Below, in pieces: positions 24,376-40,618 of a stretch of 64,000 nt of DNA (its first letter is position 1; each line of letters opens with the position of its first letter). Below the pieces are notes generated by a model. The model had not been told where the DNA came from and did no database searches. It saw only the letters and a list, made by a program, of their open reading frames with translations. A program made the position numbers and the translations under genes. The stretch spans positions 434,001-498,000 of the forward strand of contig NZ_AQQR01000002.1 in the NCBI RefSeq assembly GCF_002210095.1, read 5' to 3'. The DNA comes from Marinibacterium profundimaris (GTDB lineage Bacteria; Pseudomonadota; Alphaproteobacteria; Rhodobacterales; Rhodobacteraceae).

Positions 24376-26871
24376 ATGAGCATGACATCCGACACCCCGC
24401 TGCGCCTTGAAGTCGAGAACCTCAGCTGCGCCAGCTGCGTCCGCCGCGCCGAAGCCGCCCTGGCCGACGTGCCCGGCATCGGCGGCGCGAGCGTCAACCT
24501 GGCCAACCGCACGGCCACCGTCGAGCCCGGCACCGCCACGGGCGCGGCGCTGGCCGAAGCGCTGTCCGCCGCAGGCTACCCCGCGCGCGAGGCCGAGGCG
24601 CGGCTGGATATCGAGGGCATGACCTGCGCAGGCTGTGCCGGCCGCGCCGAACGGGCGCTGGCCGCGGTGCCCGGGGTGATCTCGGCCCAGGTGAACCTGG
24701 CCGACCGCACCGCCCGGATCCGCTATTTCGAGGGCGCCACCACGCCCGAGGCCCTGGGCGCGGCCTCGGCCGAGGCCGGTTACCCGGGCACCCCGCACGA
24801 GACCGGGCAGGGCGCCGACGCCGGCCAGCGGGCGGAGGAGGAGATCACCAGGACCCGCCGCGCCACGCTGACCGCGCTTGCGCTGACCCTGCCGATCTTC
24901 GTGCTCGAGATGACGGGCCACGTGATCCCCGCCTTCCACCACTGGATCGCCGCGACCATCGGCATGACGACCTCCTGGACGATCCAGGCGGTGCTGGCCA
25001 CGCTGGTGCTGATCGGGCCGGGCCGCGATTTCTTCCGCCACGGGATCCCGCGCCTGCTGAAGGGCGACCCGGACATGAACGCTCTGGTCGCGCTCGGCTC
25101 CGGCGCGGCCTGGATCTTTTCCACCGTCGCGTTGCTGGCGCCCGCCCTGCTGCCCGAAGGCACGCGCGCGGTCTATTACGAGGCCGCCGCCGTCATCGTC
25201 ACGCTGATCCTTGCCGGCCGCTGGCTGGAGGCCCGCGCCCGCGGCCGCACCGGTGTCGCGATCCGCAAGCTGATCGCCCTACGTCCCGAAACCGCCCTGG
25301 TCGAGACCGAAAACGGTCCCGAGGAACGCCCCACCGACAGCCTGAGCCCCGGCGATGTGCTGGTGGTGCCGCCGGGCCGCAGCCTCGCCGCGGACGGCGA
25401 GGTCGTGTCGGGTGACAGTTACATCGACGAATCCATGATCACCGGCGAACCCGTCCCGGTGGCACGCGGCGCGGGCGACCGGGTCGTGGGCGGGACGGTC
25501 AACGGGTCGGGCACGCTGCGGGTCCGGGTGACCTCGACCGGGGCCGACACCCTGCTGTCGCGCATCGTCGCCATGGTCGAAGAGGCGCAGGGCGCGCGGC
25601 TGCCGATCCAGGCGCTGGCCGACCGCGTGGTGCGGATCTTCGTGCCCGTGGTGCTGGTCATCGCTACGCTGACCTTCGTCACCTGGATGGTCTTCGGCCC
25701 GGTGCCGGCGCTGTCCCACGCGCTGGTGGCCGCGATTTCCGTATTGATCATCGCCTGCCCCTGCGCCATGGGGCTTGCCACGCCGACCTCGATCATGGTC
25801 GGCACCGGCCGCGCGGCCGAGCTGGGCGTGCTGTTCCGCCGGGGCACGGCGCTTGAGGGGCTGGCCGGCATCCGGGTCATAGCCTTCGACAAGACCGGCA
25901 CCCTGACCGAAGGCCGGCCCAGCTTGACCACGATCCGACCCGCCGGGGACTGGACCGAGGACGCGGCCCTGCGCATCGCGGCGGCGGTCGAACGCGGATC
26001 GGACCACCCGATCGCGAAGGCCATCGTCGAAGGCGCCGCGCAACGCGGGCTCGACCTGCCACAGACCTCGGACGAGCAGGCGCTGCCGGGCTACGGCCTG
26101 CAGGCCATGGTCGAGGGCCGCCGCATCCTGCTGGGCGCCCCCCGCCTGATGACGCGCGAAGGCATTGCCCTGCCCGAGATCCCGGGCGACACCGGCGCCG
26201 ACACCCCGGTCTGGCTGGCGGTGGACGGGCAGGCGGCGGCCTATCTCGCGGTTGCCGACGCGATCAAACCCGATGCGAGCCGCGCCGTCGCCGCGCTGCA
26301 GGCCGAGGGGCTGGAGGTCGCCATGATCACAGGTGACGCCCGCGCCCCGGCCGAGGCGATCGCCCGCAAGCTTGGCATCACCCATGTCGAGGCCGAGGTG
26401 CTGCCGGGCGACAAGCAGGAGGCCGTCAAACGCCTGCGCGACCGGCTTGGCCCGGTGGCCTTTGCCGGCGACGGGATCAACGACGCCCCGGCCCTGGCCG
26501 AGGCCGACGTGGGCCTTGCCATGGGCACCGGCACCGACATCGCCGTCGAAGCGGCGGATGTCGTCATGGTCTCGGGCGCCGTGGCGGGGGCGGTCAACGC
26601 ACATCACGTGTCGAAGGCGACCCTGTCCAACATCCGGCAGAACCTGTTCTGGGCCTTCGCCTACAATTCCGCGCTGATCCCCGTTGCGGCCGGCGTGCTT
26701 TATCCGCTGACCGGCACGCTGCTGTCGCCGATGCTGGCGGCCGGGGCGATGGCGCTGTCCTCGGTCTTTGTGGTGTCCAACGCGCTGCGCCTGCGCCGGA
26801 TCGCCCCGGCCCTGGCCGAGACGCCCGCGCGCCCGGCCAACAGCGCCGCGCCGAAGACGGTGACGCCATGA
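24376..26871 (+). CDS. copA: Copper-exporting P1B-type ATPase
   Basis: 831 residues. Two N-terminal heavy-metal-binding domains with CASC and CAGC copper sites, membrane segments, the CPC motif near residue 461 (CPCAMGL), the phosphorylation motif DKTGT at about 505 and GDGINDAPAL at about 698. Exports Cu(I) from the cytoplasm. ATGs at 24376 and 24382 are both possible. With the CueR promoter immediately upstream, the mRNA would begin at or within a couple of bases of the first ATG, so it may be leaderless. Its stop overlaps cueR as ATGA. Confidence 0.96.
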   Translation: MSMTSDTPLRLEVENLSCASCVRRAEAALADVPGIGGASVNLANRTATVEPGTATGAALAEALSAAGYPAREAEARLDIEGMTCAGCAGRAERALAAVPGVISAQVNLADRTARIRYFEGATTPEALGAASAEAGYPGTPHETGQGADAGQRAEEEITRTRRATLTALALTLPIFVLEMTGHVIPAFHHWIAATIGMTTSWTIQAVLATLVLIGPGRDFFRHGIPRLLKGDPDMNALVALGSGAAWIFSTVALLAPALLPEGTRAVYYEAAAVIVTLILAGRWLEARARGRTGVAIRKLIALRPETALVETENGPEERPTDSLSPGDVLVVPPGRSLAADGEVVSGDSYIDESMITGEPVPVARGAGDRVVGGTVNGSGTLRVRVTSTGADTLLSRIVAMVEEAQGARLPIQALADRVVRIFVPVVLVIATLTFVTWMVFGPVPALSHALVAAISVLIIACPCAMGLATPTSIMVGTGRAAELGVLFRRGTALEGLAGIRVIAFDKTGTLTEGRPSLTTIRPAGDWTEDAALRIAAAVERGSDHPIAKAIVEGAAQRGLDLPQTSDEQALPGYGLQAMVEGRRILLGAPRLMTREGIALPEIPGDTGADTPVWLAVDGQAAAYLAVADAIKPDASRAVAALQAEGLEVAMITGDARAPAEAIARKLGITHVEAEVLPGDKQEAVKRLRDRLGPVAFAGDGINDAPALAEADVGLAMGTGTDIAVEAADVVMVSGAVAGAVNAHHVSKATLSNIRQNLFWAFAYNSALIPVAAGVLYPLTGTLLSPMLAAGAMALSSVFVVSNALRLRRIAPALAETPARPANSAAPKTVTP

Positions 26872-27269
26872 ACATCGGCGCGGCGGCGAAACGCACCGGC
26901 CTGCCGGCCAAGACGATCCGCTATTACGAGGAAATCGGGCTGATCCGCCCGGCGCGCGATCCGAACGGCTACCGCGATTTCTCGGAAACCGATGTGCACA
27001 AGCTGGCCTTCCTTGGACGCGCCCGGTCCTTCGATTTCTCGATCGAGGATTGCCGTTCGCTTCTGGCCCTGTACGAAGACAGCACGCGCGCTTCGGGCGA
27101 CGTGAAGCGCATCGCCGAGGGGCATCTGGAGAGAATCGACGCCAAGCTGGCCGAGCTGCACGAGATGCGGCGCACCCTGTCTTCGCTGGTCGACAGCTGC
27201 GCGGGAGACAACCGGCCGGATTGCCCGATTCTCCGCGACCTGGCCTCGGACCCTGCCGGGCACGGCTGA
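26868..27269 (+). CDS. cueR: MerR family copper-responsive regulator
   Basis: 133 residues. MerR helix-turn-helix (IGAAAKRTGLPAKTIRYYEEIGLI), dimerization helix, and a metal loop with Cys111 and Cys119. Ser76 at the position of E. coli CueR Ser77 points to monovalent ions (Cu+, Ag+, Au+). Unlike E. coli, the gene is cotranscribed with its target copA (ATGA overlap), giving positive feedback on its own expression. Confidence 0.94.
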   Translation: MNIGAAAKRTGLPAKTIRYYEEIGLIRPARDPNGYRDFSETDVHKLAFLGRARSFDFSIEDCRSLLALYEDSTRASGDVKRIAEGHLERIDAKLAELHEMRRTLSSLVDSCAGDNRPDCPILRDLASDPAGHG

Positions 27270-28508: not shown

Positions 28509-30290
28509 TCAGGCCACGTAATGCCGCCAGTCGCCCAGGTCCGAGATATCGGTGGCGCCCCTGGCCGCCGCCGCCTCGCACAGGAACCCCTGCACGGTCG
28601 ATCCATCGTCCAGCCGGATCGTCCCGATGCCCAGCGGCGCGGGGATCGTCTTCATGAACGACCCGAATTCCGCCTCCGGCATCCGCCAGATTTCCAGGGC
28701 GACCGAGGCGCCGGTCCCGTCGGCCACGCGCACCAGACCGGGCCGCGCCACGTCGCCGCCCGCCAGCGCATAAAAGGCATAATCCGGCGCGGTCTTCGCG
28801 CGGCGCAGCAGCTTCGCGCCGCGCGAGGTCAGCGTGTGGTTCAGCGGCAGCCCCTCCATGTGGGCGCCGCAGACGGCAATGTCGATCGTGCCGCTCTCGC
28901 CGGCGGGGGCCAGCGCGGGCTTCGTGCGCGCCCAGCCGGTGGCGCCAAGTGTGCGGTTGCCCGCCGCCTCGATCACCGTGGCCAGCCCCGCGACCATCGC
29001 ATCCTGCCCGGCGGGTGCCAGGAAGGTCAGGCTGCCGGGCCGTCCGTCGTCGCGCGCGGGCGCCGGCACGGCGATGCCGCACATGTCCATCAGGTTCACG
29101 AAATTGGTGTAGGTGCCGAAGTTGGAATTCGGCGTCACCGGGTCGGCCTCCAGGTCGGCGACGGTGTAGAAGGTCGGGATCGTCGGCACGCACAGCGCGT
29201 CGATCCCCGCCAGCAGCGGTTCCGCCTGTCGGATCAGGTCCTTCAACCGGTAGATCCCCTTGAACGCATCCGCCGCCGACAGCTTTTCGGCCGCGCCGAT
29301 GATCTGGCGGGTGACGGGAAAGACCGCGTCGGGCGTCTTCGTCATCATCTCCTCGATCGCGGCATAGCGTTCCGCGACCCAGGCGCCCTGGTAAAGCATC
29401 TCGGCCACCGCGTAGAACGGCGTGAAATCCAGCTCCACGATCTCGCAGCCCCAGCCCTGCATGACCTCCAGCGCGGTGTAAAACGCCTCTTCCTGCACCG
29501 AGTCGCCGAAGAACCGGATCGACGCCGGATCGGGGATACCGAGACGCGCCGGCACCGGAGCGGCGAGGGGGCCGACCGGAATGTCGCGCGAATAGCTGTC
29601 CGCCGCGTCGTATCCGGCAGCGGCGGTATAGGCGGCAAAGGCATCCTCCACGCTCAGCGCGAAGACCGAGATCGTGTCGAGCGTCCGGCAGGCCGGCACC
29701 AGCCCGCTGGCCGACAGCGTGCCCAGCGTCGGCTTCAGCCCCACGATGTTGTTCAGCGCCGCCGGCACCCGCCCCGACCCGGCGGTGTCGGTCCCCAGCG
29801 CAAAGGTCACGATCCCATGTCCCACCGCCACGCCCGACCCGCCCGAGGACCCGCCCGGCACGATCTCGGGGTCGATGGAATTCAGCGGCGCGCCATAGGG
29901 CGTGCGCACGCCGACCAGCCCGGTGGCGAACTGGTCCAGGTTGGTCTTGCCCACCAGCAGCGCGCCGGCGGCCTGCAACTGCTTGACGACAAGGGCGTCT
30001 TCTTCGGCAATGTATTCATAGGCCGGGCAGGCGGCCGTGGTCGGCTTGCCTGCGGCGTCGATGTTGTCCTTGATCGCGTAAGGCGCGCCCCACAATGGTT
30101 TTGACGGATCGAAAGGCCCCAGCGCCTCGGCCGCGGCCAGCACCTCGGCCTTGTCGTAGAGGCAGAGGAAGATATGCGGATCGCCCACCGCCGCGATCCG
30201 GGCATAGACCTGTTCGATCACCTCGGCGGGCGAGGTGCCGGCGGCATAAGCGGCACGGAGCGAGGGCAGGGTCAGGGGCAGATCGGCCAT
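28509..30290 (-). CDS. atzF: Allophanate hydrolase
   Basis: 593 residues. N-terminal amidase-signature domain with the Lys74 - Ser148 - Ser172 triad (YAIKDNID, PGGSSGGSG, DTAGSGR); the spacing equals that of AtzF (Lys91/Ser165/Ser189). A C-terminal ~130-residue domain is also present, as in true AtzF. It hydrolyses allophanate to ammonia and CO2, the last step of cyanurate/biuret breakdown. The ATG at 30290 starts MADLPLTLPSLRAAY; upstream in-frame codons are not conserved. Divergent from the LysR gene and the rest of the island. Confidence 0.93.
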   Translation of the reverse strand: MADLPLTLPSLRAAYAAGTSPAEVIEQVYARIAAVGDPHIFLCLYDKAEVLAAAEALGPFDPSKPLWGAPYAIKDNIDAAGKPTTAACPAYEYIAEEDALVVKQLQAAGALLVGKTNLDQFATGLVGVRTPYGAPLNSIDPEIVPGGSSGGSGVAVGHGIVTFALGTDTAGSGRVPAALNNIVGLKPTLGTLSASGLVPACRTLDTISVFALSVEDAFAAYTAAAGYDAADSYSRDIPVGPLAAPVPARLGIPDPASIRFFGDSVQEEAFYTALEVMQGWGCEIVELDFTPFYAVAEMLYQGAWVAERYAAIEEMMTKTPDAVFPVTRQIIGAAEKLSAADAFKGIYRLKDLIRQAEPLLAGIDALCVPTIPTFYTVADLEADPVTPNSNFGTYTNFVNLMDMCGIAVPAPARDDGRPGSLTFLAPAGQDAMVAGLATVIEAAGNRTLGATGWARTKPALAPAGESGTIDIAVCGAHMEGLPLNHTLTSRGAKLLRRAKTAPDYAFYALAGGDVARPGLVRVADGTGASVALEIWRMPEAEFGSFMKTIPAPLGIGTIRLDDGSTVQGFLCEAAAARGATDISDLGDWRHYVA

Positions 30291-30412
30291 GGGATGAATC
30301 CTTGGAGCGCTTCGGGGTCGTGTCACGGCAAACGGCGCCCGGATCCCGGACGCGGGCCTGGGACGAGCTTCGGCCTTACCGAGCGTTTCCACAAATGCTA
30401 AGTTTTCACAAA

Positions 30413-30435
30413 AGCGGTGCAGGAAACGCACCGCT
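30413..30435. promoter_or_regulatory. Candidate LysR operator 1 (atzF / lysR intergenic)
   Basis: AGCGGTGC (30413-30420), spacer AGGAAAC, GCACCGCT (30428-30435): a perfect 8-bp inverted repeat. It sits in the 188 bp between atzF and lysR, 44 bp before the lysR start. Its reverse complement differs at only two positions from the site at 31389-31411. Confidence 0.75.
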
Positions 30436-30478
30436 CATTGTTTCACGTGGCACATTCACCAGGCAGGCAAGGGGCGTC

Positions 30479-31381
30479 ATGCGGCATCTGCAGGATTTCG
30501 ACATGGTGGAGGCGATCATCCGCGCCGGCTCCATCCGCAAGGCGGCGGAAGACATGAACATCACCGCCTCGGCGCTGAACCGCCGCATCAACCGGTTCGA
30601 GGAGGAGCTGGGCTACGAGATCTTCGAGCGCCTGCCGCGCGGTGTCCGCCTGAACCCGGCCGGAGAACTGGTGCTGCACCATATCCGCGCCCAACGCTCC
30701 GATTTCGCGCGGCTGCAAAGCCAGGTCGCCGATCTGTCGGGCGTGCGGCGGGGCCATGTCTCCATCGCCTGTTCGCAGGCCCTGCTGCCCTATTTCATGC
30801 CCGACCAGATCGCCAGATACCGGGCCGAGCATCGCGGCGTGACCTTTTCGGTCAAGACCCGCGACCGGGTCGAGGCCGAGCACGACCTGTCCACCTTCGC
30901 CTCGGACATCGCGCTGGTGTTCGAACCGCAGCACATGGTGGATTTCGAGGTCGTCGTGCAGATCCAGCAGCCGGTTCACGTGGTGATGCGCGCCGACAAT
31001 CCCCTGGCCTCGCAGACCGAGATCCGCCTGCGCGACTGCCTGGAGCAGGCCTATGTCGCGCCCAGCCCCCGTTATGGCGCGCGGGTGCTGCTGGATGCCG
31101 CTGCGCGCAAGACCACCTACCGCACGATCGAGCCGGTCGTGGAATCCGAAAGCTTCGACTTCATGCGCCATTACGTGCTGCACGAGAACGCCATCGCCTT
31201 CCAGTTTCCCATCGGCCTGAAGATGGTCGGGGCGCGCGGCTACGTCGCCCGGCCCCTGTCGACCCGCGATGTGGCGCCGGGCAACCTGTTTCTCGGCCAG
31301 CTGCGCGGGCGGATCCTGCCTGTCGCCTCCGGCCGCTTCCTGCAGCAGCTGGCCACCGCGCTGCAGGCCCACGCGCTTTGA
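30479..31381 (+). CDS. LysR family regulator of the cyanurate/biuret island
   Basis: 300 residues. N-terminal winged helix-turn-helix (FDMVEAIIRAGSIRKAAEDMNITASALNRRINRFEEELGYEIFERLPRG) and a C-terminal substrate-binding domain (from about residue 90). It lies between the divergent atzF and the transporter-hydrolase operon, with matching inverted repeats on both sides, so it very likely controls both. The inducer should be a pathway compound such as cyanurate or biuret. The ATG at 30479 gives a canonical LysR N-terminus. Confidence 0.9.
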   Translation: MRHLQDFDMVEAIIRAGSIRKAAEDMNITASALNRRINRFEEELGYEIFERLPRGVRLNPAGELVLHHIRAQRSDFARLQSQVADLSGVRRGHVSIACSQALLPYFMPDQIARYRAEHRGVTFSVKTRDRVEAEHDLSTFASDIALVFEPQHMVDFEVVVQIQQPVHVVMRADNPLASQTEIRLRDCLEQAYVAPSPRYGARVLLDAAARKTTYRTIEPVVESESFDFMRHYVLHENAIAFQFPIGLKMVGARGYVARPLSTRDVAPGNLFLGQLRGRILPVASGRFLQQLATALQAHAL

Positions 31382-31388
31382 TCCATCA

Positions 31389-31411
31389 AGCGGTGCGTTT
31401 CATGCACCACT
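31389..31411. promoter_or_regulatory. Candidate LysR operator 2 (upstream of the ABC operon)
   Basis: AGCGGTGC (31389-31396), spacer GTTTCAT, GCACCACT (31404-31411). The right arm has one mismatch to a perfect repeat. Positioned 8 bp after the lysR stop and 114 bp before the binding-protein start. Confidence 0.72.
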
Positions 31412-31524
31412 CTTGCAAAAAACAAGCATAAGACAACACCACAAATCGGTCCTACGCTGCCTCCTGTCACTCACTCCGCTCTGGTCAGCACCCGGGGCGG
31501 GCCCGCCACAGGAGCATACCCGCC

Positions 31525-32643
31525 TTGACCAGATCCACCTTTTCCCGCCGCCATTTCCTGGCCACCACGGCCGCCATGGGCGGTGTCGCCGCCACCGGAT
31601 CGCTGATCCCCACGCGCGCCCGCGCCGCCAACCTGACCGTCGGATTCATCTATGTCGGGCCGAAGGACGATTTCGGCTACAACCAGGCCCATGCCGAGGG
31701 CGCCGCCGCCGTGAAGGAGATGGAAGGCGTCACCGTCGTCGAGGAAGAGAACGTCCCCGAGACCAACGATGTCCAGAACACCATGGAATCGATGATCAAT
31801 TTCGATGGCGCCGGGCTGCTCTTCCCGACCTCCTTCGGCTATTTCGATCCGCACGTTCTGGAAGTGGCGCCGAAATACCCCGAGGTGCGCTTTGAACATG
31901 CCGCCGGGCTCTGGACCGAAGGCATGCCCACCAATGTCGGGTCCTACTTCGGCTATATCGGCATGGGCCAGTACCTGAACGGCATCGTTGCCGGCCACAT
32001 GACCCAGTCGAAGAAGATCGGCTTCGTCGCGGCCAAGCCGATCCCGCAGGTGCTGCTGAACATCAACTCCTTCCTGCTGGGCGCCCGCGCGGTGGATCCC
32101 GAGATCACCTGCCAGGTCATCTTCACCGGGGAATGGTCGCTTGCCGTGAAGGAGGCCGAGGCCACCAACGCGCTGTGCGACCAGGGCTGTGACGTGATCA
32201 CCTGCCACGTGGACGGGCCCAAGGTGGTGATGGAAACCGCCGCCGGGCGCGGGTCCTACATCTGCGGCTATCATGCCAACCAGTCGCCCCTGGCGCCCGA
32301 GATGTACCTGACCGGGGCCGAATGGAACTGGGCCGGGGTCTATCCGCAGATGGTGCAGACCATGCTGGATGGCGGCACGATCGACAACTTCATCCGCGGC
32401 GGCCTGGCCGACGGCTTCATCAAGATGTCGCCGCTGGGCCCCGCCGTCACCGACGCCGCCCGCGCCCAGTTCGAAGAGACCAAGGCCGAGATCGAGAAGG
32501 GCGGTTTCTCGGTCATCAAGGGCCCGCTGAAGGACAACAAGGGCAACGTGATCGCCGCTGAGGGCGAGGAATTCCTGGAAACCGACATCGCGCTTGAAAG
32601 CATGGACTACCTCGTCGAGGGCGTCATCGGTTCGACGAACTGA
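31525..32643 (+). CDS. BMP family ABC transporter substrate-binding protein
   Basis: 372 residues. Twin-arginine signal (SRRHFLATTAA, cleavage after about residue 34 at ARA), then a BMP/PnrA-like fold: LTVGFIYVGPKDDFGYNQAHAEGA, and QGCDVITCHVDGPKVVMETAAGRGSYICGYHANQSPLAP. Relatives bind purine nucleosides and other ring compounds. The start is a TTG, with AGGAG 11 nt upstream; no ATG precedes the signal peptide. First gene of a ten-gene operon. Inferred ligand: cyanuric acid, biuret or a related ureide. Confidence 0.9.
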   Translation: MTRSTFSRRHFLATTAAMGGVAATGSLIPTRARAANLTVGFIYVGPKDDFGYNQAHAEGAAAVKEMEGVTVVEEENVPETNDVQNTMESMINFDGAGLLFPTSFGYFDPHVLEVAPKYPEVRFEHAAGLWTEGMPTNVGSYFGYIGMGQYLNGIVAGHMTQSKKIGFVAAKPIPQVLLNINSFLLGARAVDPEITCQVIFTGEWSLAVKEAEATNALCDQGCDVITCHVDGPKVVMETAAGRGSYICGYHANQSPLAPEMYLTGAEWNWAGVYPQMVQTMLDGGTIDNFIRGGLADGFIKMSPLGPAVTDAARAQFEETKAEIEKGGFSVIKGPLKDNKGNVIAAEGEEFLETDIALESMDYLVEGVIGSTN

Positions 32644-32647
32644 TCCA

Positions 32648-33754
32648 ATGGCGGATGTGACGACGGCCCAACCGACGCGGCACGGCGTGGCGCTGGCCAA
32701 GTGGCTGCCACGGCTGGAGGCCGTCGTCATTCCGCTGGGCGCCCTGATCGCGGGCCTGGCGGTGTTCTCGGTCTTTCTTGCCGTTCTCGGCAAGTCGCCC
32801 GTGGATTTCTATGCGCTGATCTACAAGGCCGGGTTCAGCTCGGCCTTTTCCTGGCAGAACACGCTGTCGCGGGTTTCGCCACTGCTCTTTGCGGGTCTCT
32901 GCGTTGCCCTGCCCGCGCGGCTGGGCCTCGTGGTGATCGGCGGCGAAGGGGCCATCGCGCTTGGTGGTCTTGCCGCTGCCGTTGCGGGGCTGGCCTTCGC
33001 CTGGGCGCCCTCCTTCCTCGGCTTTATCGCCATGGGGGTGGCCGCGATGATCATCGGCGGTGCGTGGATCGGCGCCGTCGGCTGGCTCCGCATCCGGCGC
33101 GGCGTGAACGAGACCATCGCCTCGCTGCTGATGGCCTATATCGCCATCGCCCTGATGAACCACTGGGTCGAGGGGCTGTTCCGCGATCCCGCCTCGCTCA
33201 ACAAGCCCTCGACCGCGCCCCTGCCCGAACATCTGCGCATCGGCGACATGCCGGTGGGGATCGACGTGCACTGGGGGTTCTTCTTTGGCCTGCTGGCTTG
33301 TCTCCTCGCCTGGATCCTGACGGACCGCACGACGACGGGCTTCGCCGCCCGCATCGCCGGCGACAACATCCGCGCGGCCGAGGTGCAGGGCCTTCCGGTG
33401 GGGCGGCTGGTGATCGGCTTCACCGCTCTGGGCGGGGCGGCGGCCGGGCTTGCCGGGTTCTTCGAGGTCGCGGCGATCCACGGCTCGGCCAATGGCTCGC
33501 TTATCGTGGGCTATGGCTACACCGGCATCCTGGTTGCCTTCCTCGCACGCCACAATCCGCTGGCAATCATCCCCGTCGCCATCCTTCTCGCCGGGTTCGA
33601 GGCGTCATCCGGCCTGGTCCAGCGCCGCATGGACCTGCCCGACGCCACCATCCTGGTGATGGAGGGGATCGTCTTCGTCACCATCCTGCTGTCGGAAACG
33701 CTGTACGGCCGGATCGCGATCTTCAAACCGGGCTTCTGGAGGGCTGACGCATGA
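32648..33754 (+). CDS. ABC transporter permease 1 (BMP/nucleoside type)
   Basis: 368 residues with about nine or ten hydrophobic helices. GVNETIASLLMAYIAIALMNHWVEG and GFAARIAGDNIRAAEVQGLPVGR (coupling loop) are those of the BPD_transp_2 permeases that accompany BMP-type binding proteins. Starts 4 bp after the binding-protein gene; overlaps the next permease by ATGA. Confidence 0.92.
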   Translation: MADVTTAQPTRHGVALAKWLPRLEAVVIPLGALIAGLAVFSVFLAVLGKSPVDFYALIYKAGFSSAFSWQNTLSRVSPLLFAGLCVALPARLGLVVIGGEGAIALGGLAAAVAGLAFAWAPSFLGFIAMGVAAMIIGGAWIGAVGWLRIRRGVNETIASLLMAYIAIALMNHWVEGLFRDPASLNKPSTAPLPEHLRIGDMPVGIDVHWGFFFGLLACLLAWILTDRTTTGFAARIAGDNIRAAEVQGLPVGRLVIGFTALGGAAAGLAGFFEVAAIHGSANGSLIVGYGYTGILVAFLARHNPLAIIPVAILLAGFEASSGLVQRRMDLPDATILVMEGIVFVTILLSETLYGRIAIFKPGFWRADA

Positions 33755-34674
33755 GCACCGACATCGGCATGTGGGGCGTTCCGCTCGCCATCCTCGGCGG
33801 CGCGATCCGGGTCTCGACGCCGTTCCTGTTCGTCTCCATCGGCGAATGCCTGACCGAACGCTCGGGCCGCATCAACCTCGGGCTCGAAGGCACGCTCGTC
33901 TTCGGTGCCATGTCCGGCTACGCGATTGCCTTCGAGACCGGCTCGCCCTGGGCGGGGGTTCTGGCGGCGGCGCTGGCGGGGGCGGTTTTCGGCCTGTTCC
34001 ACGGCTGGATCTGCAAGTTCAAGGGCGTGAACGACGTGGCCATCGGCATCGCGCTGATGCTCTTGGGCATGGGCCTCGCCTTCTTCTTCGGCAAGCCCTA
34101 CATCCAGCCGGTCGCGCCCGACCTGCCGGCGATCCCGCTGGGCTGGTGGTCCGACATCCCGCAGGTGCAGGCGGCACTGCAGGTCAACGCGCTGTTCATC
34201 ATCGGCGCGGCTCTGGCGGTGGCCATGGCCTGGATGTTCCGATCCACGAAGATCGGCCTGACCATCCGCGTCGTGGGCGACAGCACCGATGCCGCCCGCG
34301 CCATCGGGCTGAACCCCAACACCGTGCGCCTGCTGTCCACCGCCGCTGGCGGCGCGCTGGCGGGCGTGGGGGGCGCATACCTCTCGCTCTATTATCCCGG
34401 CAGCTGGAACGAAGGCGTCTCGTCCGGGCAGGGCCTGATGGCCGTCGCGCTGGTGATCTTTGCCCGCTGGAACCCGATCTATTGCTTCTGGGCTGCCCTT
34501 CTCTTCGGCGGCGCAGGCGCGCTGGGCCCCGCGTTGCAATCCGTGGGCGTCACCTCGGGCTATTACCTCTTCTTCGCAGCGCCTTACGTGCTCACGCTGG
34601 CGCTGCTCATCTTCACCTCCTCCCCGGACAAGGCCATGGACGGCGCGCCCGGAGAGCTGAGCCTCAACAAGTAG
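33751..34674 (+). CDS. ABC transporter permease 2 (BMP/nucleoside type)
   Basis: 307 residues, about eight hydrophobic helices. The opening GGAIRVSTPFLFVSIGECLTERSGRINLGLEG is the signature of the second permease of such systems. Forms the membrane heterodimer with permease 1. Ten bp separate it from the amidohydrolase gene. Confidence 0.92.
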   Translation: MSTDIGMWGVPLAILGGAIRVSTPFLFVSIGECLTERSGRINLGLEGTLVFGAMSGYAIAFETGSPWAGVLAAALAGAVFGLFHGWICKFKGVNDVAIGIALMLLGMGLAFFFGKPYIQPVAPDLPAIPLGWWSDIPQVQAALQVNALFIIGAALAVAMAWMFRSTKIGLTIRVVGDSTDAARAIGLNPNTVRLLSTAAGGALAGVGGAYLSLYYPGSWNEGVSSGQGLMAVALVIFARWNPIYCFWAALLFGGAGALGPALQSVGVTSGYYLFFAAPYVLTLALLIFTSSPDKAMDGAPGELSLNK

Positions 34675-34684
34675 GGAGACCGGC

Positions 34685-35701
34685 ATGAACGGACTTGGCG
34701 GCCTGAACAAATCCGAAAACGGCGTGGTCCTGGGCCTCGTGCAGCTGAAACTGCCCAATGTGGTGACGAAGGACGACCTTGCCGCCCAGACCGCGCGCAT
34801 CGTGGAGCTGGTCGGCAAGGCGCGGCGCAACATGGGCACGATGGACCTTGTCGTCTTCCCCGAATACGCGCTGCACGGCCTGTCGATGGACATCAACCCC
34901 GAGATCATGTGCACCATGGACGGCCCCGAGGTCGCGGCCTTCAAGCAGGCCTGTATCGACAACGCGATCTGGGGCTGCTTCTCGATCATGGAGCTGAACC
35001 CGGGTGGCATGCCCTACAATTCCGGCCTGATCATCGACGACGAGGGCGAGGTCCGGCTCTATTACCGCAAGATGCACCCCTGGGTCCCGGTGGAGCCGTG
35101 GGAGCCGGGCGATCAGGGCATCCCGGTCTGCGACGGGCCGAACGGGTCGAAGATCGCGCTGATCATCTGCCACGACGGCATGTTCCCGGAAATGGCCCGC
35201 GAATGCGCCTACAAGGGGGCGGAGATCATGATCCGCACCGCCGGCTACACCGCGCCGATCCGGGATTCGTGGAAATTCACCAACCAGTCCAACGCCTTCT
35301 GCAACCTCATGGCCACCGCCAACGTCTGCATGTGCGGCAGCGACGGGACCTTCGATTCGATGGGTGAGGGCATGATCTGCAACTTCGACGGCGCGGTCAT
35401 CGCGCATGGCACCTCCGGCCGCGCGGATGAGATCATCACCGCCGAGATCCGCCCCGACCTGATCCGCGAGGCCCGCACCGGTTGGGGGGTGGAGAACAAC
35501 CCCTACCAGTTCGGCCATCGCGGCTATGTCGCCGTGAAGGGCGGTGCGCAGGATTGCCCCTATACCTACATGACCGACCTCGCCGCCGGGCAGTACCGCC
35601 TGCCCTGGGAGGACGAGGTCAAGGTGACGGACGGGACCGATTTCGGCTTCCCCGCGCCGACCCGCCTTTACGGTGAAACCAAGAAGGACGCCGCCGAATG
35701 A
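34685..35701 (+). CDS. Formamidase / aliphatic amidase family (nitrilase superfamily)
   Basis: 338 residues. Nitrilase-fold catalytic residues are Glu60 ([10 protein letters not shown]), Lys129 (YYRKMHPW), Glu137 and Cys162 ([10 protein letters not shown]). Length and the segments [31 protein letters not shown] and [16 protein letters not shown] fit AmiF formamidase. It would release ammonia from a small amide. It is the fourth gene of the operon, overlapping biuH by ATGA. Its role in a cyanurate pathway is not obvious; the true substrate may be a ureide-derived amide rather than formamide. Confidence 0.82.
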
Positions 35702-36372
35702 CCTATGTCGACGCCAATCCGTACCAATGGCCCTACAACGGCGATCTGCGCCCCGAGAACACGGCGCTGATCATCATCGACATGCAGACCGATTTTTGCG
35801 GCAAGGGTGGCTACGTGGATGCCATGGGCTATGACCTTTCGCTGACACAGGCCCCGATCAAGCCGATCAAGGCGGTGCTGACGAAGATGCGCGAGAAGGG
35901 TTACCATATCTTTCACACGCGCGAAGGCCACCGGCCCGACCTCAGCGACCTGCCCGCGAACAAGCGCTGGCGCTCGCAGCAGATCGGCGCGGGCATCGGC
36001 GATCCCGGCCCCTGCGGCAAGATCCTCGTGCGGGGCGAGCCGGGATGGGACATCATCGACGAGCTTTACCCCGCCTCCGGCGAGATCATCATCGACAAGC
36101 CCGGCAAGGGGTCGTTCTGCGCCACGGACCTGGAACTGATCCTGCGCACGCGCGGCATCGAGAACCTGATCCTTTGCGGCATCACCACAGATGTCTGCGT
36201 CTCGACCACCATGCGCGAGGGCAACGACCGGGGTTTCGAATGCCTCGTGTTGTCAGACTGTTGCGGGGCCACCGATCCGGGCAACCACGAGGCGGCGCTG
36301 AAGATGGTGACGATGCAGGGCGGCGTCTTTGGCGCGGTGTCCGACAGCGAGAAACTGATCGAGGCGCTCTGA
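35698..36372 (+). CDS. biuH: Biuret amidohydrolase (isochorismatase-like)
   Basis: 224 residues. The catalytic triad Asp28, Lys134 and Cys167 has exactly the spacing of the triad reported for Rhizobium BiuH (Asp36, Lys142, Cys175). The N-terminus ([29 protein letters not shown]) and [20 protein letters not shown]-type region are also as I recall that enzyme. It converts biuret to allophanate and ammonia. Overlaps the formamidase gene (ATGA); the ring-opening enzyme gene starts 3 bp later. Confidence 0.9.
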
Positions 36373-36375
36373 CCC

Positions 36376-37434
36376 ATGCCCCGCGCCCGCCTGCACCTGA
36401 TCCGCACCTCCGCCCCCGATGATGTCAGCGGCCTGATGGCCCATATCGACGCCGGAGAGATCGACCCGTCGAAGCTCGTCGCGATCCTCGGCAAGACCGA
36501 GGGCAACGGCTGCGTCAACGATTTCACCCGCGCCTTCTCGGTCCAGGCGCTGACCGCCGCGCTGGGGGCCGAAACGCAAGGCGTGGCCATGGTCATGTCC
36601 GGGGGCACAGAGGGCGGCCTTTGCCCCCATATCCTCACCTTCGAGGTGCTGGAGGACGACACGCCCCTCGATGCCCCCGCGCTAGCCATCGGCTCCGTCA
36701 TCACCCGCGACCTGAAACCGGAAGAGATCGGCACCGTCAGCCAGATCGAGATCGTGGCCGAGGGTGTCGCGCAGGCAATGGCGAAGGCCGGCATCCCCGA
36801 TCCGGCCGACGTGCATTTCGTCCAGATCAAATGCCCCCTTCTGACCGCCGCCCGCGTGGCTGAGGCCGCCGCCCGGGACGCGGCGACCGTGACCACCGAC
36901 ACGCTGAAATCCATGGGCTTTTCCCGCGGCGCCTCGGCGCTCGGCGTGGCCGTGGCATTGGGCGAGGCCAGCCCGGACGACGCCATCCCCGCCATCTGCA
37001 CCGACCCTTCGGTCTGGTCCTCCCGCGCCTCCACCTCTGCGGGGATCGAGCTGATGGGCCACGAGATCATCGTCATGGGCATGAGCGAAACGTGGTCCGG
37101 CCCGCTGGTCATCGACCACGCCGTGATGTCCGACCAGATCGACATCGCCCCGGTGATCGACGCCATGACCCGCCTGAACATCGGCGTCTCCGCCACGCTG
37201 AAGGCGCTGCTGGCCAAGGCCGAACCGGGCACCACCGGCACGATTCGGGGCAACCGCCATATCATGCTGGACGACAGCGACATCGCCGCCACCCGCCACG
37301 CCCGCGCCTTTGTCGGCGGCGCACTGGCCGGGATCGCCGGGCGCACCGACATCTATGTCTCGGGCGGCGCCGAACATCAGGGCCCCGACGGCGGCGGCCC
37401 GGTGGCCCTCATCGCCGAAAGGACCGATCCATGA
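36376..37434 (+). CDS. atzD: Cyanuric acid amidohydrolase / barbiturase family
   Basis: 352 residues, the ring-opening amidohydrolase family with three internal repeats. Candidate Lys/Ser pairs are Lys40/Ser75 (LGKTEGNG, VMSGGTEGG), Lys152/Ser221 (QIKCPLL, STSAGIELMG) and Lys281/Ser329 (YVSGGAEHQGPDGGG). The family opens cyanuric acid to carboxybiuret, which loses CO2 to give biuret, or opens barbiturate. The adjacent biuH and the divergent atzF favour cyanuric acid, but specificity is inferred from context. The ATPase gene overlaps its stop. Confidence 0.88.
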   Translation: MPRARLHLIRTSAPDDVSGLMAHIDAGEIDPSKLVAILGKTEGNGCVNDFTRAFSVQALTAALGAETQGVAMVMSGGTEGGLCPHILTFEVLEDDTPLDAPALAIGSVITRDLKPEEIGTVSQIEIVAEGVAQAMAKAGIPDPADVHFVQIKCPLLTAARVAEAAARDAATVTTDTLKSMGFSRGASALGVAVALGEASPDDAIPAICTDPSVWSSRASTSAGIELMGHEIIVMGMSETWSGPLVIDHAVMSDQIDIAPVIDAMTRLNIGVSATLKALLAKAEPGTTGTIRGNRHIMLDDSDIAATRHARAFVGGALAGIAGRTDIYVSGGAEHQGPDGGGPVALIAERTDP

Positions 37435-38951
37435 CCGCAGCCAGGGGGGGCATCGAGGTCGAGGCCGTCGCCATGACCATGCGCTTCGGCGCCTTTACGG
37501 CGCTCGACAACGTGACGCTGAAGGTCCGCAAGGGCACGTTCCACGCGCTGCTGGGCGAAAACGGCGCGGGCAAGTCGACGCTGGTGAAATGCATGATGGG
37601 CTTCTACCACGCGACCGAGGGCAACGTGCTGGTCGACGGCCGCGACGCCGTGATCGGCGACCCGGTCGATGCGCAGATGCTGGGCCTGGGCATGGTCTAC
37701 CAGCATTTCACGCTGGTCCCCTCGCTGACCGGGGCGGAAAACCTGGTGATCTCGCGCGCCGATGCGCCGTCGGTCATCCAGTGGCGGGCCGAACGCGCCC
37801 GGCTGGATGATTTCCTGTCGTCGATGCCCTTCAAGGTGCCGCTGGACCGCCCGGTCTCGCGCCTCTCTGCCGGCGAAAAGCAGAAGCTGGAGATCCTCAA
37901 GCAGCTCTACCTCGGCTCGCGTTTCCTGATCCTGGACGAGCCGACCTCGGTCCTGACCCCTGCGGAGGCCGACGAGGTGCTGGGCCATGTCCGCGCGTTG
38001 TGCGAGGCGGGGCAGATCTCGGTCCTCATGATCACCCACAAGTTCCGCGAAGTGACCGCCTTTGCCGACGATGTCTCGGTTCTCAGACGCGGCCAGCTGG
38101 CCGGCCATGGCGCGGTGAAGGACCTGAGCCACGACGACATGGCCCGCATGATGATGGGCGCCCAGCCCGAGCGCGCCGAGGTCACGCGCTCTGCCACCGT
38201 CGGGGCGCCGGTTCTGACGCTGAGCGATGCGAAGGCCGCCGACCGGTCGGGGCTGAAGTCCATCGACATCGCCGCGCTGGAGGTGCGGGCCGGCGAGATC
38301 CTTGGCATCGCCGGGGTTTCCGGCAACGGGCAGACCGAGCTGATGGAGATGCTGACCGGCCAGCGCCGCCTGACCGGGGGCGAGATCCGGATCCATGGCG
38401 AACCGTACCATGCCACCCGCCGCGAGCAGAAGGCGCTCAAGGTCCGCTACCTGCCCGAAGAGCCGCTGCACAATGCCTGCGCCCCGCGCATGTCGGTAGC
38501 AGAAAACATCGCCTTCCGCATCTTTGACGAGGATGACACCGGCGGCCCGCGCCTGTGGAAGAACACGCGCCAGATCCTTGCCAATGCCGAGGCCCGCATC
38601 GCCGAGTTCAACGTGAAGACCGCCTCGCCCCATTCCCCCATCGCAGCCCTCTCGGGCGGCAACGTGCAGCGCGCGGTGCTGTCGCGCGAGCTGACCGGGG
38701 ATGTCGATCTGCTGATCGTCGCCAACCCCTGCTTCGGCCTCGATTTCGCGGCCGTCGCCGCGATCCGCGAGCGCATTGTCGAGTCCCGCAACCGGGGCGT
38801 CGCCGTGCTGCTGATCTCGGAAGACCTGGACGAGATCCTGGAACTGTCCGACCGCATCCTGGTGATGTCCGAAGGGCAGATCGCATTTGAGACAACGTCC
38901 CAGAACGCGGACACAGCTGAAATCGGCTCTTACATGGCGGGGCATGCGTGA
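37431..38951 (+). CDS. ABC transporter ATPase with two nucleotide-binding domains
   Basis: 506 residues. First domain: Walker A GENGAGKS, LSAGEKQKLE signature, Walker B FLILDEPTS. Second domain: degenerate Walker A (GVSGNGQTE), LSGGNVQRA signature and a Walker B with Asn-Pro in place of Asp-Glu (LLIVANPCFGLD), typical of this class. It powers the BMP-type importer, although it is separated from the permeases by three enzyme genes. Start ATG 37431 overlaps atzD. Confidence 0.93.
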   Translation: MTAARGGIEVEAVAMTMRFGAFTALDNVTLKVRKGTFHALLGENGAGKSTLVKCMMGFYHATEGNVLVDGRDAVIGDPVDAQMLGLGMVYQHFTLVPSLTGAENLVISRADAPSVIQWRAERARLDDFLSSMPFKVPLDRPVSRLSAGEKQKLEILKQLYLGSRFLILDEPTSVLTPAEADEVLGHVRALCEAGQISVLMITHKFREVTAFADDVSVLRRGQLAGHGAVKDLSHDDMARMMMGAQPERAEVTRSATVGAPVLTLSDAKAADRSGLKSIDIAALEVRAGEILGIAGVSGNGQTELMEMLTGQRRLTGGEIRIHGEPYHATRREQKALKVRYLPEEPLHNACAPRMSVAENIAFRIFDEDDTGGPRLWKNTRQILANAEARIAEFNVKTASPHSPIAALSGGNVQRAVLSRELTGDVDLLIVANPCFGLDFAAVAAIRERIVESRNRGVAVLLISEDLDEILELSDRILVMSEGQIAFETTSQNADTAEIGSYMAGHA

Positions 38952-39616
38952 TGGCCGTGATCAAGGCGGATCCCTTCGACTTTCCCTTCGATCCGGCAAC
39001 GCTGGGCCTGGTCGTGATCGACATGCAGCGCGACTTTTGCGAGCCCGGCGGCTTTGGCGAAACCCTGGGCAACGATGTCTCACTTCTGAGACAGATCATC
39101 CCCACCACCGCCCGCCTGATCGCCGGCTTCCGCGCCGTCGGCCTGCCTGTCATCCACACCCGCGAATGCCACCGTCCCGATCTGTCGGATCTGCCGCCCG
39201 CCAAGCGCGACCGGGGCAGCCCCAGCCTGCGGATCGGCGATCCGGGACCGATGGGCCGCATCCTGATCGCGGGCGAGGACGGCGCCGACATCATCCCCGA
39301 GCTTTATCCGATCGACGGCGAGACGGTGATCGACAAACCCGGCAAGGGCGCCTTTTACGGCACCGGCTTCGGCGATGTGCTGAAGGAAAATGGGCTGAAA
39401 CAGCTGATCTTCGCGGGCGTGACCACCGAGGTCTGCGTGCAGACCACCATGCGCGAGGCCAATGACCGGGGCTACGAATGCCTTCTGGCGACCGATGCCA
39501 CCGAAAGCTATTTCCCGGTCTTCAAACAGGCCGCCATCGCGATGATCACGGCGCAGGGCGGTATCGTCGGCTGGGCCGCGCCCACGGATGCCGTGCTGGA
39601 GGGGCTTCATGCGTGA
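38951..39616 (+). CDS. Second isochorismatase-like cysteine hydrolase
   Basis: 221 residues. Triad Asp24 (VVIDMQRDF), Lys129 (VIDKPGKGAF) and Cys162 (TTEVCVQTT). It is clearly a paralogue of the BiuH-type protein three kb upstream, but differs at the N-terminus, lacks the NKRWRSQ segment and has a different C-terminal third. It probably hydrolyses a related ureide or amide. The ATG overlaps the ATPase stop; a GTG one codon earlier is an alternative start. It overlaps the cupin gene by 8 bp. Confidence 0.88.
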   Translation: MAVIKADPFDFPFDPATLGLVVIDMQRDFCEPGGFGETLGNDVSLLRQIIPTTARLIAGFRAVGLPVIHTRECHRPDLSDLPPAKRDRGSPSLRIGDPGPMGRILIAGEDGADIIPELYPIDGETVIDKPGKGAFYGTGFGDVLKENGLKQLIFAGVTTEVCVQTTMREANDRGYECLLATDATESYFPVFKQAAIAMITAQGGIVGWAAPTDAVLEGLHA

Positions 39617-39941
39617 GCCCGCGATCACCCGCGACCTGCTGAACGGCGGCTGGAAAGACCTGGAGTACGAACCGTTCAAGCCCGGCATCACGGCGCATTG
39701 GCTGCTGAAGGGCGAACCGGGGATCGCGATCCTGTGCTACGAACCGGGCGCCTGCGCGCCGCTGCACCTGCACGTGGATGTCGAGACGATCCTGGTGCTG
39801 GACGGCGCCCAGTCGGATGAGCACGGGACCTATTGCCGGGGCGATTTCGTCATCAACCCCAAGGGTAGCCGGCACAGCGTCTCCAGCGCCGATGGCTGTG
39901 TCGTGCTGCTGACCTACACGCGCCCGGTCCGCTTCCTGTGA
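39609..39941 (+). CDS. Small cupin-domain protein
   Basis: 110 residues, one cupin barrel. Motif 1 PLHLHVDVETILVLDGAQSDE has two His and a Glu suited to bind a metal; motif 2 is GDFVINPKGSRHSV with the third His. Last gene of the operon (8-bp overlap). Function unknown; similar cupins act as metal-dependent hydrolases, decarboxylases or sensors. A carboxybiuret-handling role is possible but purely inferred. Confidence 0.82.
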   Translation: MREPAITRDLLNGGWKDLEYEPFKPGITAHWLLKGEPGIAILCYEPGACAPLHLHVDVETILVLDGAQSDEHGTYCRGDFVINPKGSRHSVSSADGCVVLLTYTRPVRFL

Positions 39942-40541: not shown

Positions 40542-40618
40542 TGGTCGGAGTAGCAGGATTCGAACCTACGACCCCTGCCTCCCGAAGACAGTGCTCTACC
40601 AGGCTGAGCTATACTCCG
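40542..40618 (-). tRNA. tRNA-Pro (anticodon CGG)
   Basis: 77 nt, minus strand. Acceptor arms CGGAGTA / TACTCCG then ACCA with an encoded CCA end. D-arm GCTC...GAGC, anticodon stem CTGTC/GGCAG with loop TTCGGGA (anticodon CGG, reads CCG), and T-loop TTCGAAT. A frequent integration target for mobile elements, but no integrase is nearby. Confidence 0.97.

Follow-up and report, generated by a model that had tools for sequence, protein, structure and literature searches.

Described systems and the operon of Marinibacterium profundimaris

The closest described counterparts of the operon analysed here come from root-nodule bacteria, nitrifiers and Pseudomonas sp. ADP. The operon lies in a 64,000-nucleotide stretch of contig NZ_AQQR01000002.1 of the alphaproteobacterium Marinibacterium profundimaris (the whole stretch is called the window below), and combines predicted hydrolases for cyanurate, biuret and triuret with an importer of the BMP/PnrA type. 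The characterised biuret hydrolase BiuH is from Rhizobium leguminosarum bv. viciae 3841 (now R. johnstonii), whose biuH and cyanurate hydrolase genes are placed on plasmid pRL10 (PMC5806882). This plasmid carries, at RL_RS29145-29185, nine genes identical in kind and order to those of the window: bmp-perm-perm-fmdA-biuH-atzD-abc-trtA-cupin. The cysteine hydrolase of the pRL10 locus is trtA by its signature, and the two BiuH-like places on the plasmid are the biuH and trtA of the operon, so the operon biuH should be the characterised gene. On pRL10 a GntR regulator is divergent from bmp, whereas the window has a LysR regulator, and atzF stands beside the operon in the window but not in the 18.7 kb stretch examined on pRL10. 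Protein identity between the two loci runs from 54% (cupin) and 59% (atzD) up to 83% (fmdA). By gene content and order, the window operon is a further example of an operon known from root-nodule bacteria.

In ammonia-oxidising bacteria and comammox Nitrospira, bmpA-nupABC adjoins biuH, trtA, trtB and atzF (PMC12625717). These nitrifier loci resemble the window in joining an importer to TrtA, BiuH and AtzF, but they have a trtB decarboxylase (none in comammox) and no atzD was found in them, whereas the window has a cupin, atzD and a formamidase; their transporter is called a nucleoside transporter (PMC12625717). The atzRSTUVW/atzDGEHF region on pADP-1 of Pseudomonas sp. ADP shares with the window a LysR regulator, a BMP-type importer, AtzD and AtzF, but has AtzE/G/H and no annotated BiuH or TrtA in the 26.8 kb examined. 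Its binding protein AtzT is 36% identical to that of the window and has the purine-type Glu165. The closest solved relative of the protein encoded at 38951-39616 is TrtA of Herbaspirillum sp. BH-1 (6xix), with which all twelve diagnostic positions agree. On the importer ligand, the Glu/Gln change described below, the cupin and the formamidase in such operons, we found nothing in the open-access literature, supplements aside.

An earlier note on this DNA had proposed a complete cyanurate/biuret catabolic island with its own importer. With good confidence, we read the locus as an operon under LysR control that scavenges nitrogen from urea-chain compounds. The sequence itself shows the gene identities, the diagnostic residues, the conservation of gene order, a shared dyad and a pocket change; substrates, import, regulation and the role of the cupin we infer. 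The Tat-exported BMP protein would bind a planar ligand rich in carbonyl and NH groups. Triuret and/or biuret are the most likely ligands, with cyanurate as a possible further one; two permeases and a double ATPase would import what is bound. TrtA would hydrolyse triuret and AtzD would open cyanurate, both giving carboxybiuret, which would lose CO2 to become biuret, spontaneously or perhaps via the cupin. BiuH would convert biuret to allophanate, and AtzF allophanate to ammonia and CO2. We further propose, tentatively and at rather less than even confidence, that the operon has two undescribed parts. One would be a polyurea-specific branch of BMP proteins that have another residue instead of the purine-contacting Glu. 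The other would be a small metal-dependent cupin serving as a second, unrelated carboxybiuret decarboxylase, which would substitute for the AtzH-like enzyme in the majority of the alphaproteobacterial triuret operons sampled. Bench work is best directed at these two parts.

Enzymes of the pathway

The AtzD, BiuH, AtzF and BMP importer genes named by the earlier note have intact frames and family scores above curated cut-offs, and the locus has the complete gene set from cyanurate through biuret and allophanate to ammonia. AtzD exceeds the 360-bit cut-off of its equivalog model (scores in Table 1). Its best match in the PDB is 4nq3 (E 2e-129), while the barbiturase 5hwe follows only at E 3.2e-62. 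All three Ser-Lys dyads are kept (K40/S75, K152/S221 and K281/S329, with S221 placed from the alignment), and Arg184 occupies the Arg188 position, where the barbiturase group has Gln and cyanurate hydrolases have Arg (PMC4051656). Because of Arg184, the three dyads and the closer match to 4nq3, we class the ring opener as cyanurate type and not barbiturase type. Between two congeners (L032:9120-10214 and window 36376-37434) AtzD is the least conserved operon protein, at 82% identity; the cupin reaches 84, atzF 85, lysR 86, abc 93, and biuH and fmdA 94%.

BiuH passes its cut-off of 370 bits and matches 6azo at E 1.8e-127. The residues D28/K134/C167 have exactly the spacing of D36/K142/C175 in the Rhizobium enzyme, as the earlier note had seen, and the BiuH consensus DFYYKKSDCTQV is present in the window protein, the exact 12-residue string recurring in 107 of 112 other biuH-group sequences. 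The second isochorismatase-type cysteine hydrolase of the operon, by contrast, stays below the cut-off of the BiuH model (260 bits against 370); TrtA 6xix is its best PDB match (E 3.5e-81), with BiuH 6azo second (E 3.5e-64). The residues that discriminate TrtA from BiuH are F35, N41, A134, E160, Y187 and I205 (PMC7948467, Tassoulas et al.). The window protein has the catalytic D24/K129/C162 and all six discriminators with the numbering unchanged, and its TrtA string DFFNKKAECYQI is matched over all 12 residues in 109 of 116 other trtA-group sequences. The trtA loci were found by peptide patterns covering D24, F29, Q202 and I205, so that the other eight signature positions are unbiased. Since a protein with every TrtA diagnostic residue is encoded in the operon, triuret is very probably a third entry to the pathway beside cyanurate and biuret, and the route proposed earlier keeps its start at cyanurate but does not start from cyanurate alone.

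AtzF scores 753 bits with TIGR02713 (cut-off 511) and 166 bits with AH_C, and its best PDB match is 4gyr (E 1.6e-157). Counted from the ATG, it has Lys74/Ser148/Ser172, which we take to be the amidase signature. The formamidase matches 5g3o at E 3.4e-111 and contains Glu60/Lys129/Cys162, presumably its triad. We propose that it is an accessory amidase in this setting; no open-access paper naming a formamidase alongside a biuret hydrolase was found. An N-formyl ureide as its substrate would be speculative.

The importer and its ligand pocket

The family matches agree with the Tat-exported binding protein, two permeases and double ATPase described earlier, and the BMP/PnrA-type importer is complete, with a Bmp protein, two BPD_transp_2 permeases and the double ABC ATPase. 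The binding protein scores 127 bits with its Pfam family (cut-off 24), begins with a Tat motif (TIGR01409, 20.1 bits against 16.7) and has AtzT (6pi5) as best PDB match (E 3.1e-62). A putative vitamin B6 transporter was rejected: NF047927, NF047929, NF047928 and NF047930 give 73, 159, 137 and 406 bits against cut-offs of 400, 400, 465 and 670, the last pair of values being those of the double ABC ATPase.

In AtzT, which is encoded in the cyanurate region of Pseudomonas sp. ADP, guanine is sandwiched between Tyr45 and Trp194 and hydrogen-bonded by Ser97, Glu165, Asn218, Asn220 and the backbone of Phe98; among the compounds tested, guanine binds best, with a dissociation constant of 110 nM (PMC6834077). 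The earlier note knew BMP systems as nucleoside importers, but ones with other ligands, such as AtzT, and their link to s-triazine or biuret operons have already been published (PMC6834077, PMC12625717). Aligned with AtzT, the pocket of the window protein reads Y52 S103 F104 Q175 N179 W204 H228 D230: the aromatic sandwich, the Ser and the Phe are kept, while Glu165, Asn218 and Asn220 are replaced by Gln175, His and Asp. The His/Asp pair is also usual in BMP proteins that are not linked to such operons and are presumably of the purine type. The telling change is, on the alignment, that from Glu to Gln at the Glu165 position. Among 103 linked BMP proteins this position is Gln in 98, Ser in three, Thr in one and Glu in one, the sole Glu coming from an additional, distantly related BMP gene in the neighbourhood of one operon (L036). 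Among 34 unlinked proteins, AtzT included, it is Glu in 28 and Gln in one. When the L036 gene is left out, the linked proteins (102 rows, the window included) fall on one side of a branch in a quick tree, with one change. All eight pocket residues are unchanged both in loci with atzD (18 of 19) and in those without it (79 of 84). Gln both donates and accepts a hydrogen bond and would suit the alternating C=O/NH edge of biuret, triuret and cyanurate. The ligand of the importer is likely of the polyurea type, and the importer possibly takes up cyanurate as well.

The single unlinked protein with Gln (L203) is encoded beside another isochorismatase-type hydrolase, 28% identical to TrtA (L203:7190-9081; judged by eye and alignment), whose signature has neither the TrtA nor the BiuH string. 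This BMP protein is perhaps an importer for another ureide.

Distribution of the operon

Our main set comprised 112 distinct trtA loci with biuH nearby, the window not counted, in which neighbours were scored within 9 kb. An abc gene is present in 111 of these loci, bmp in 105, fmdA in 56 and atzD in 24, and the core order bmp-perm-perm...abc-trtA is kept in 104. Seven loci lack bmp: L149 and L283 have it just past 9 kb, L051, L052, L140 and L151 are cut by contig ends, and in L141 no importer is seen. The presence or absence of atzD takes 14 changes on a quick TrtA tree, where support is poor for 48 of the 110 inner branches; this suggests that the gene is repeatedly gained and lost while the importer persists. 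Since the importer is found in 105 of the 112 loci and atzD in 24, the importer is best placed in the triuret/biuret core.

The operon is common. Of 72,556 plasmid records, 291 contain a BiuH relative (E 1e-40, all degrees of identity), and so do 33 of the 295 genomes sampled from the window's family. Importer genes adjoin biuH in 28 of the 33 family genomes, although some are cut by a contig end and in one (G118) abc is broken and trtA was not seen. In G242 the importer and biuH have no trtA beside them, and four of the 33 genomes show no importer. AtzD is found in seven of the 295 genomes, inside the operon only in the window genome and one congener (G239). In a sample of the class, 37 of 142 genomes have a BMP match (3 of 47 matches were not fetched). 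The fetched relatives of 52-78% identity adjoin biuH in all nine cases with enough contig, a tenth (L202) ending early, and the fetched ones at 43% identity or less are not beside biuH. Some other TrtA-type genes (L060, L065, L066, L266, L267, L269, L279, L280 and L282) lack all of these neighbours inside the 9-kb limit, be it biuH, bmp, the cupin or an AtzH-like gene; the first three are from one genome, which also carries a biuH-importer cluster.

The cupin and the carboxybiuret step

The earlier note took AtzE, AtzG and AtzH to be absent and the decarboxylation of carboxybiuret to be spontaneous. The absence of AtzE and AtzH is confirmed: the AtzH-like family (PF11533) has no member in the whole genome searched, and AtzE gave no match above the cut-off, in a genome search that did not include AtzG. 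Spontaneous decarboxylation need not hold, as a conserved cupin occupies the place that an AtzH-like gene takes at other loci. In the Pseudomonas pathway, AtzH has been proposed to use a carboxylated urea as substrate (PMC6219798), and TrtB is stated to decarboxylate carboxybiuret, for which a half-life of about 20 min has been published (PMC7948467). A gene list reading 'trtA, biuH, and atzH' in PMC12625717 hints, unconfirmed, that TrtB is AtzH-like.

The cupin matches cupin families only (Cupin_7, 55 bits), and its metal ligands H, H, E and H are invariant in 96 of 96 sequences. It lies directly 3' of trtA in 92 of the 112 loci; an AtzH-like gene is found in 11, neither in nine, and both in none. 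Fisher's test on this exclusion gives p 3e-10 when related loci are treated as independent. They are not: corrected for phylogeny, supported branches offer two independent pairs, of which one or two are as expected and none opposite in each of 200 pairings, a comparison without power. In genomes from other classes of the phylum an AtzH-like gene can stand 22-71 bases from trtA (L270, L271), and one genome of the window's family (L056) has no cupin but an AtzH-like gene after atzF.

A candidate role for the cupin, to which we give slightly less than an even chance, is to replace the AtzH-like enzyme as carboxybiuret decarboxylase. That it is instead a regulator or ligand sensor seems to us a serious though less probable alternative. 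In sequence as in fold, it matches best the cupin domain of ChrR, an anti-sigma factor, but the anti-sigma part is missing, the metal site is invariant in all 96 sequences, and the gene always comes directly after trtA, in 92 loci none of which has an AtzH-like gene within 9 kb. Identity with ChrR itself was rejected, as the anti-sigma domain is missing and the cupin scores 37 bits against a cut-off of 124.5, matching only positions 127-202 of the 216 of the profile, its C-terminal part. The fold model (mean predicted local distance difference test score, pLDDT, 97) retrieves ChrR first in Foldseek, then several dioxygenases and dimethylsulfoniopropionate lyases, with scores too alike to decide the function from the fold alone.

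The LysR regulator and its predicted operator

The regulator is 41% identical over 295 amino acids to the LysR protein beside atzD on pADP-1, which is named AtzR (PMC6834077). The intergenic regions atzF-lysR and lysR-bmp both contain AGCGGTGC-N7-GCACCRCT, which is probably the operator through which LysR controls the two transcripts. A count over 105 distinct loci (1.94 Mb) gave 12 copies of the core dyad GGTGC-N7-GCACC; 11 of these lie no more than 320 bases upstream of bmp, lysR or atzF. Of the 15 loci whose LysR is at least 58% identical, 8 have the promoter dyad, as against 1 of the 27 whose LysR is less similar and none of the 63 that lack a LysR. A sigma-54 promoter, as in Pseudomonas sp. 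ADP, was rejected: the consensus, allowed up to three mismatches, matches the window 83 times where 104 matches are expected, and the lysR-bmp gap contains a single match, with three mismatches.

Weighing of alternative readings

The cyanurate island of the earlier note, in which the BMP system is mainly a cyanurate importer and carboxybiuret decarboxylates unaided, is supported by an AtzD with cyanurate-type residues inside the operon. Of the 24 atzD genes near trtA, 20 stand at one and the same point, between biuH and abc, and the association is therefore not a casual one; the carbonyl/NH edges of biuret, triuret and cyanurate are similar, and a single pocket may accept all of them; and nine of the 112 loci have neither cupin nor AtzH-like gene, so that an enzyme is not always needed for the decarboxylation. 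However, 88 of the 112 loci have no atzD within 9 kb, proteins from atzD-less loci keep the pocket (79 of 84), TrtA was overlooked, and the cupin offers a decarboxylating enzyme. We consider this version unlikely. Its idea of a cyanurate, biuret or ureide importer survives in part: the pocket differs from that of the purine-binding AtzT at the base-contacting Glu, but a dedicated cyanurate importer is less likely because the importer tracks biuH and trtA and not atzD (105 against 24 of the 112 loci). We rate as still more improbable a purine or nucleobase importer that is merely cotranscribed and supplies purine-oxidation products to the enzymes. Guanine binding by AtzT, the closest solved relative, the adenine modelled in 3s99 and the H228/D230 pair, the same as in most unlinked BMP proteins, would fit it. 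In every one of the 102 operon proteins, however, another residue stands in for the guanine-contacting Glu of AtzT (Gln in 98, Ser in 3, Thr in 1), many further conserved columns differ from the unlinked proteins, and no purine-degrading enzyme is among the ten proteins scanned. Least probable of all is a barbiturate or pyrimidine catabolic operon with the AtzD homologue as barbiturase: the two enzymes are one family, but Arg184 in place of Gln, the three Ser-Lys dyads and the E values (2e-129 to cyanurate hydrolase, 3.2e-62 to barbiturase) speak against it.

Several observations also weigh against the preferred reading, a nitrogen-scavenging operon with a polyurea importer under LysR control. 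The pocket difference is confounded by common ancestry, as the linked proteins are one branch of the quick tree, and the guanine binding of AtzT warns that a neighbourhood need not reveal the ligand (PMC6834077). The reading does not account for the formamidase gene, which is missing from 56 of the 112 loci. The core dyad occurs four times in the window, twice at the operon promoters and twice outside (9423 and 60273); near-matches of the dyad number six against 2.4 expected, which 3 of 100 shuffles match, and dyad counts inside the window alone are weak evidence. Across loci the dyad is confined mostly to those with the closest LysR.

Gene layout and flanking regions

From bmp to the cupin, neighbouring genes are at most 10 bases apart or overlap, so a single transcript is likely. 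All genes named by the earlier note were found; fmdA, trtA and the cupin gene (3 genes) had been overlooked.

Table 1. Features of the operon and its control region in the window.
Feature	Position	Strand	Remarks
atzF, allophanate hydrolase, amidase with C-terminal AH_C domain	28509..30290	-	divergent from the other operon genes
inverted repeat AGCGGTGC-N7-GCACCGCT, probable LysR operator	30413..30435		between atzF and lysR
lysR regulator, AtzR-like	30479..31381	+	between atzF and bmp
inverted repeat, second copy, AGCGGTGC-N7-GCACCACT	31389..31411		upstream of bmp
bmp, Tat-exported BMP/PnrA-type binding protein	31525..32643	+	PF02608
permease 1 (BPD_transp_2)	32648..33754	+	PF02653, 93 bits
permease 2 (BPD_transp_2)	33751..34674	+	PF02653, 120 bits
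fmdA, formamidase	34685..35701	+	NF009803, 577 bits (cut-off 406)
biuH, biuret hydrolase	35698..36372	+	NF050097, 421 bits; signature DFYYKKSDCTQV
atzD, cyanuric acid hydrolase	36376..37434	+	NF052395, 501 bits
double-domain ABC ATPase of the importer	37431..38951	+	two ABC_tran stretches
trtA, predicted triuret hydrolase	38951..39616	+	signature DFFNKKAECYQI; GTG at 38948 is an alternative start
single-domain cupin, 110 residues	39609..39941	+	full 3-His-1-Glu metal site

The word 'island' is not supported in the sense of a mobile insert: the GC content is unremarkable, inside the range of the remaining window, and the downstream flank is conserved in two close relatives (L032, L079), where tRNA-Pro, eamA and leuB follow the operon as in the window. 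The tRNA-Pro(CGG) gene lies at 40542-40618, just 3' of the operon, and is no sign of insertion, as it is downstream in both relatives too. On the other side, at 24376-27269, reading frames judged by eye give a P-type metal ATPase (831 amino acids) whose end is overlapped by a MerR-type regulator; the two resemble a copper-resistance pair.

Related genes on conjugative plasmids

A cysteine hydrolase with the full TrtA signature is encoded on the Escherichia coli plasmid p135-3 from chicken faeces (L285:3995-4663), next to DUF2877, fdrA, DUF1116 and carbamate kinase genes, an allFGHK-type set. Such a set is reported beside trtA/biuH in comammox (PMC12625717). Of the 72,556 plasmid records, 82 have near-identical DNA, 78 of them from E. 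coli and 4 from Klebsiella, and every one is typed as conjugative; the signature and neighbours are those of the L285 record only. Among 40 listed records, 17 come from birds and 10 from people; birds excrete uric acid, which can yield triuret on oxidation. A complete operon of the order atzF-bmp-perm-perm-fmdA-biuH-abc-trtA lies between IS1-type transposase genes on a conjugative plasmid of Enterobacter kobei (L286:2017-11640); its annotation includes neither atzD nor a cupin, and the pocket residues of its BMP protein are as in the window.

Significance

On this analysis the importer goes with the triuret/biuret core rather than with 'cyanurate', and one named candidate protein for polyurea import is at hand. 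It also offers a candidate enzyme for a carboxybiuret step earlier taken as spontaneous, and identifies a probable regulator site. Triuret and cyanurate can arise from the chemical oxidation of uric acid (PMC7948467), and at sea, in soils and on plants such operons may therefore connect the supply of nitrogen with the oxidation of purines.

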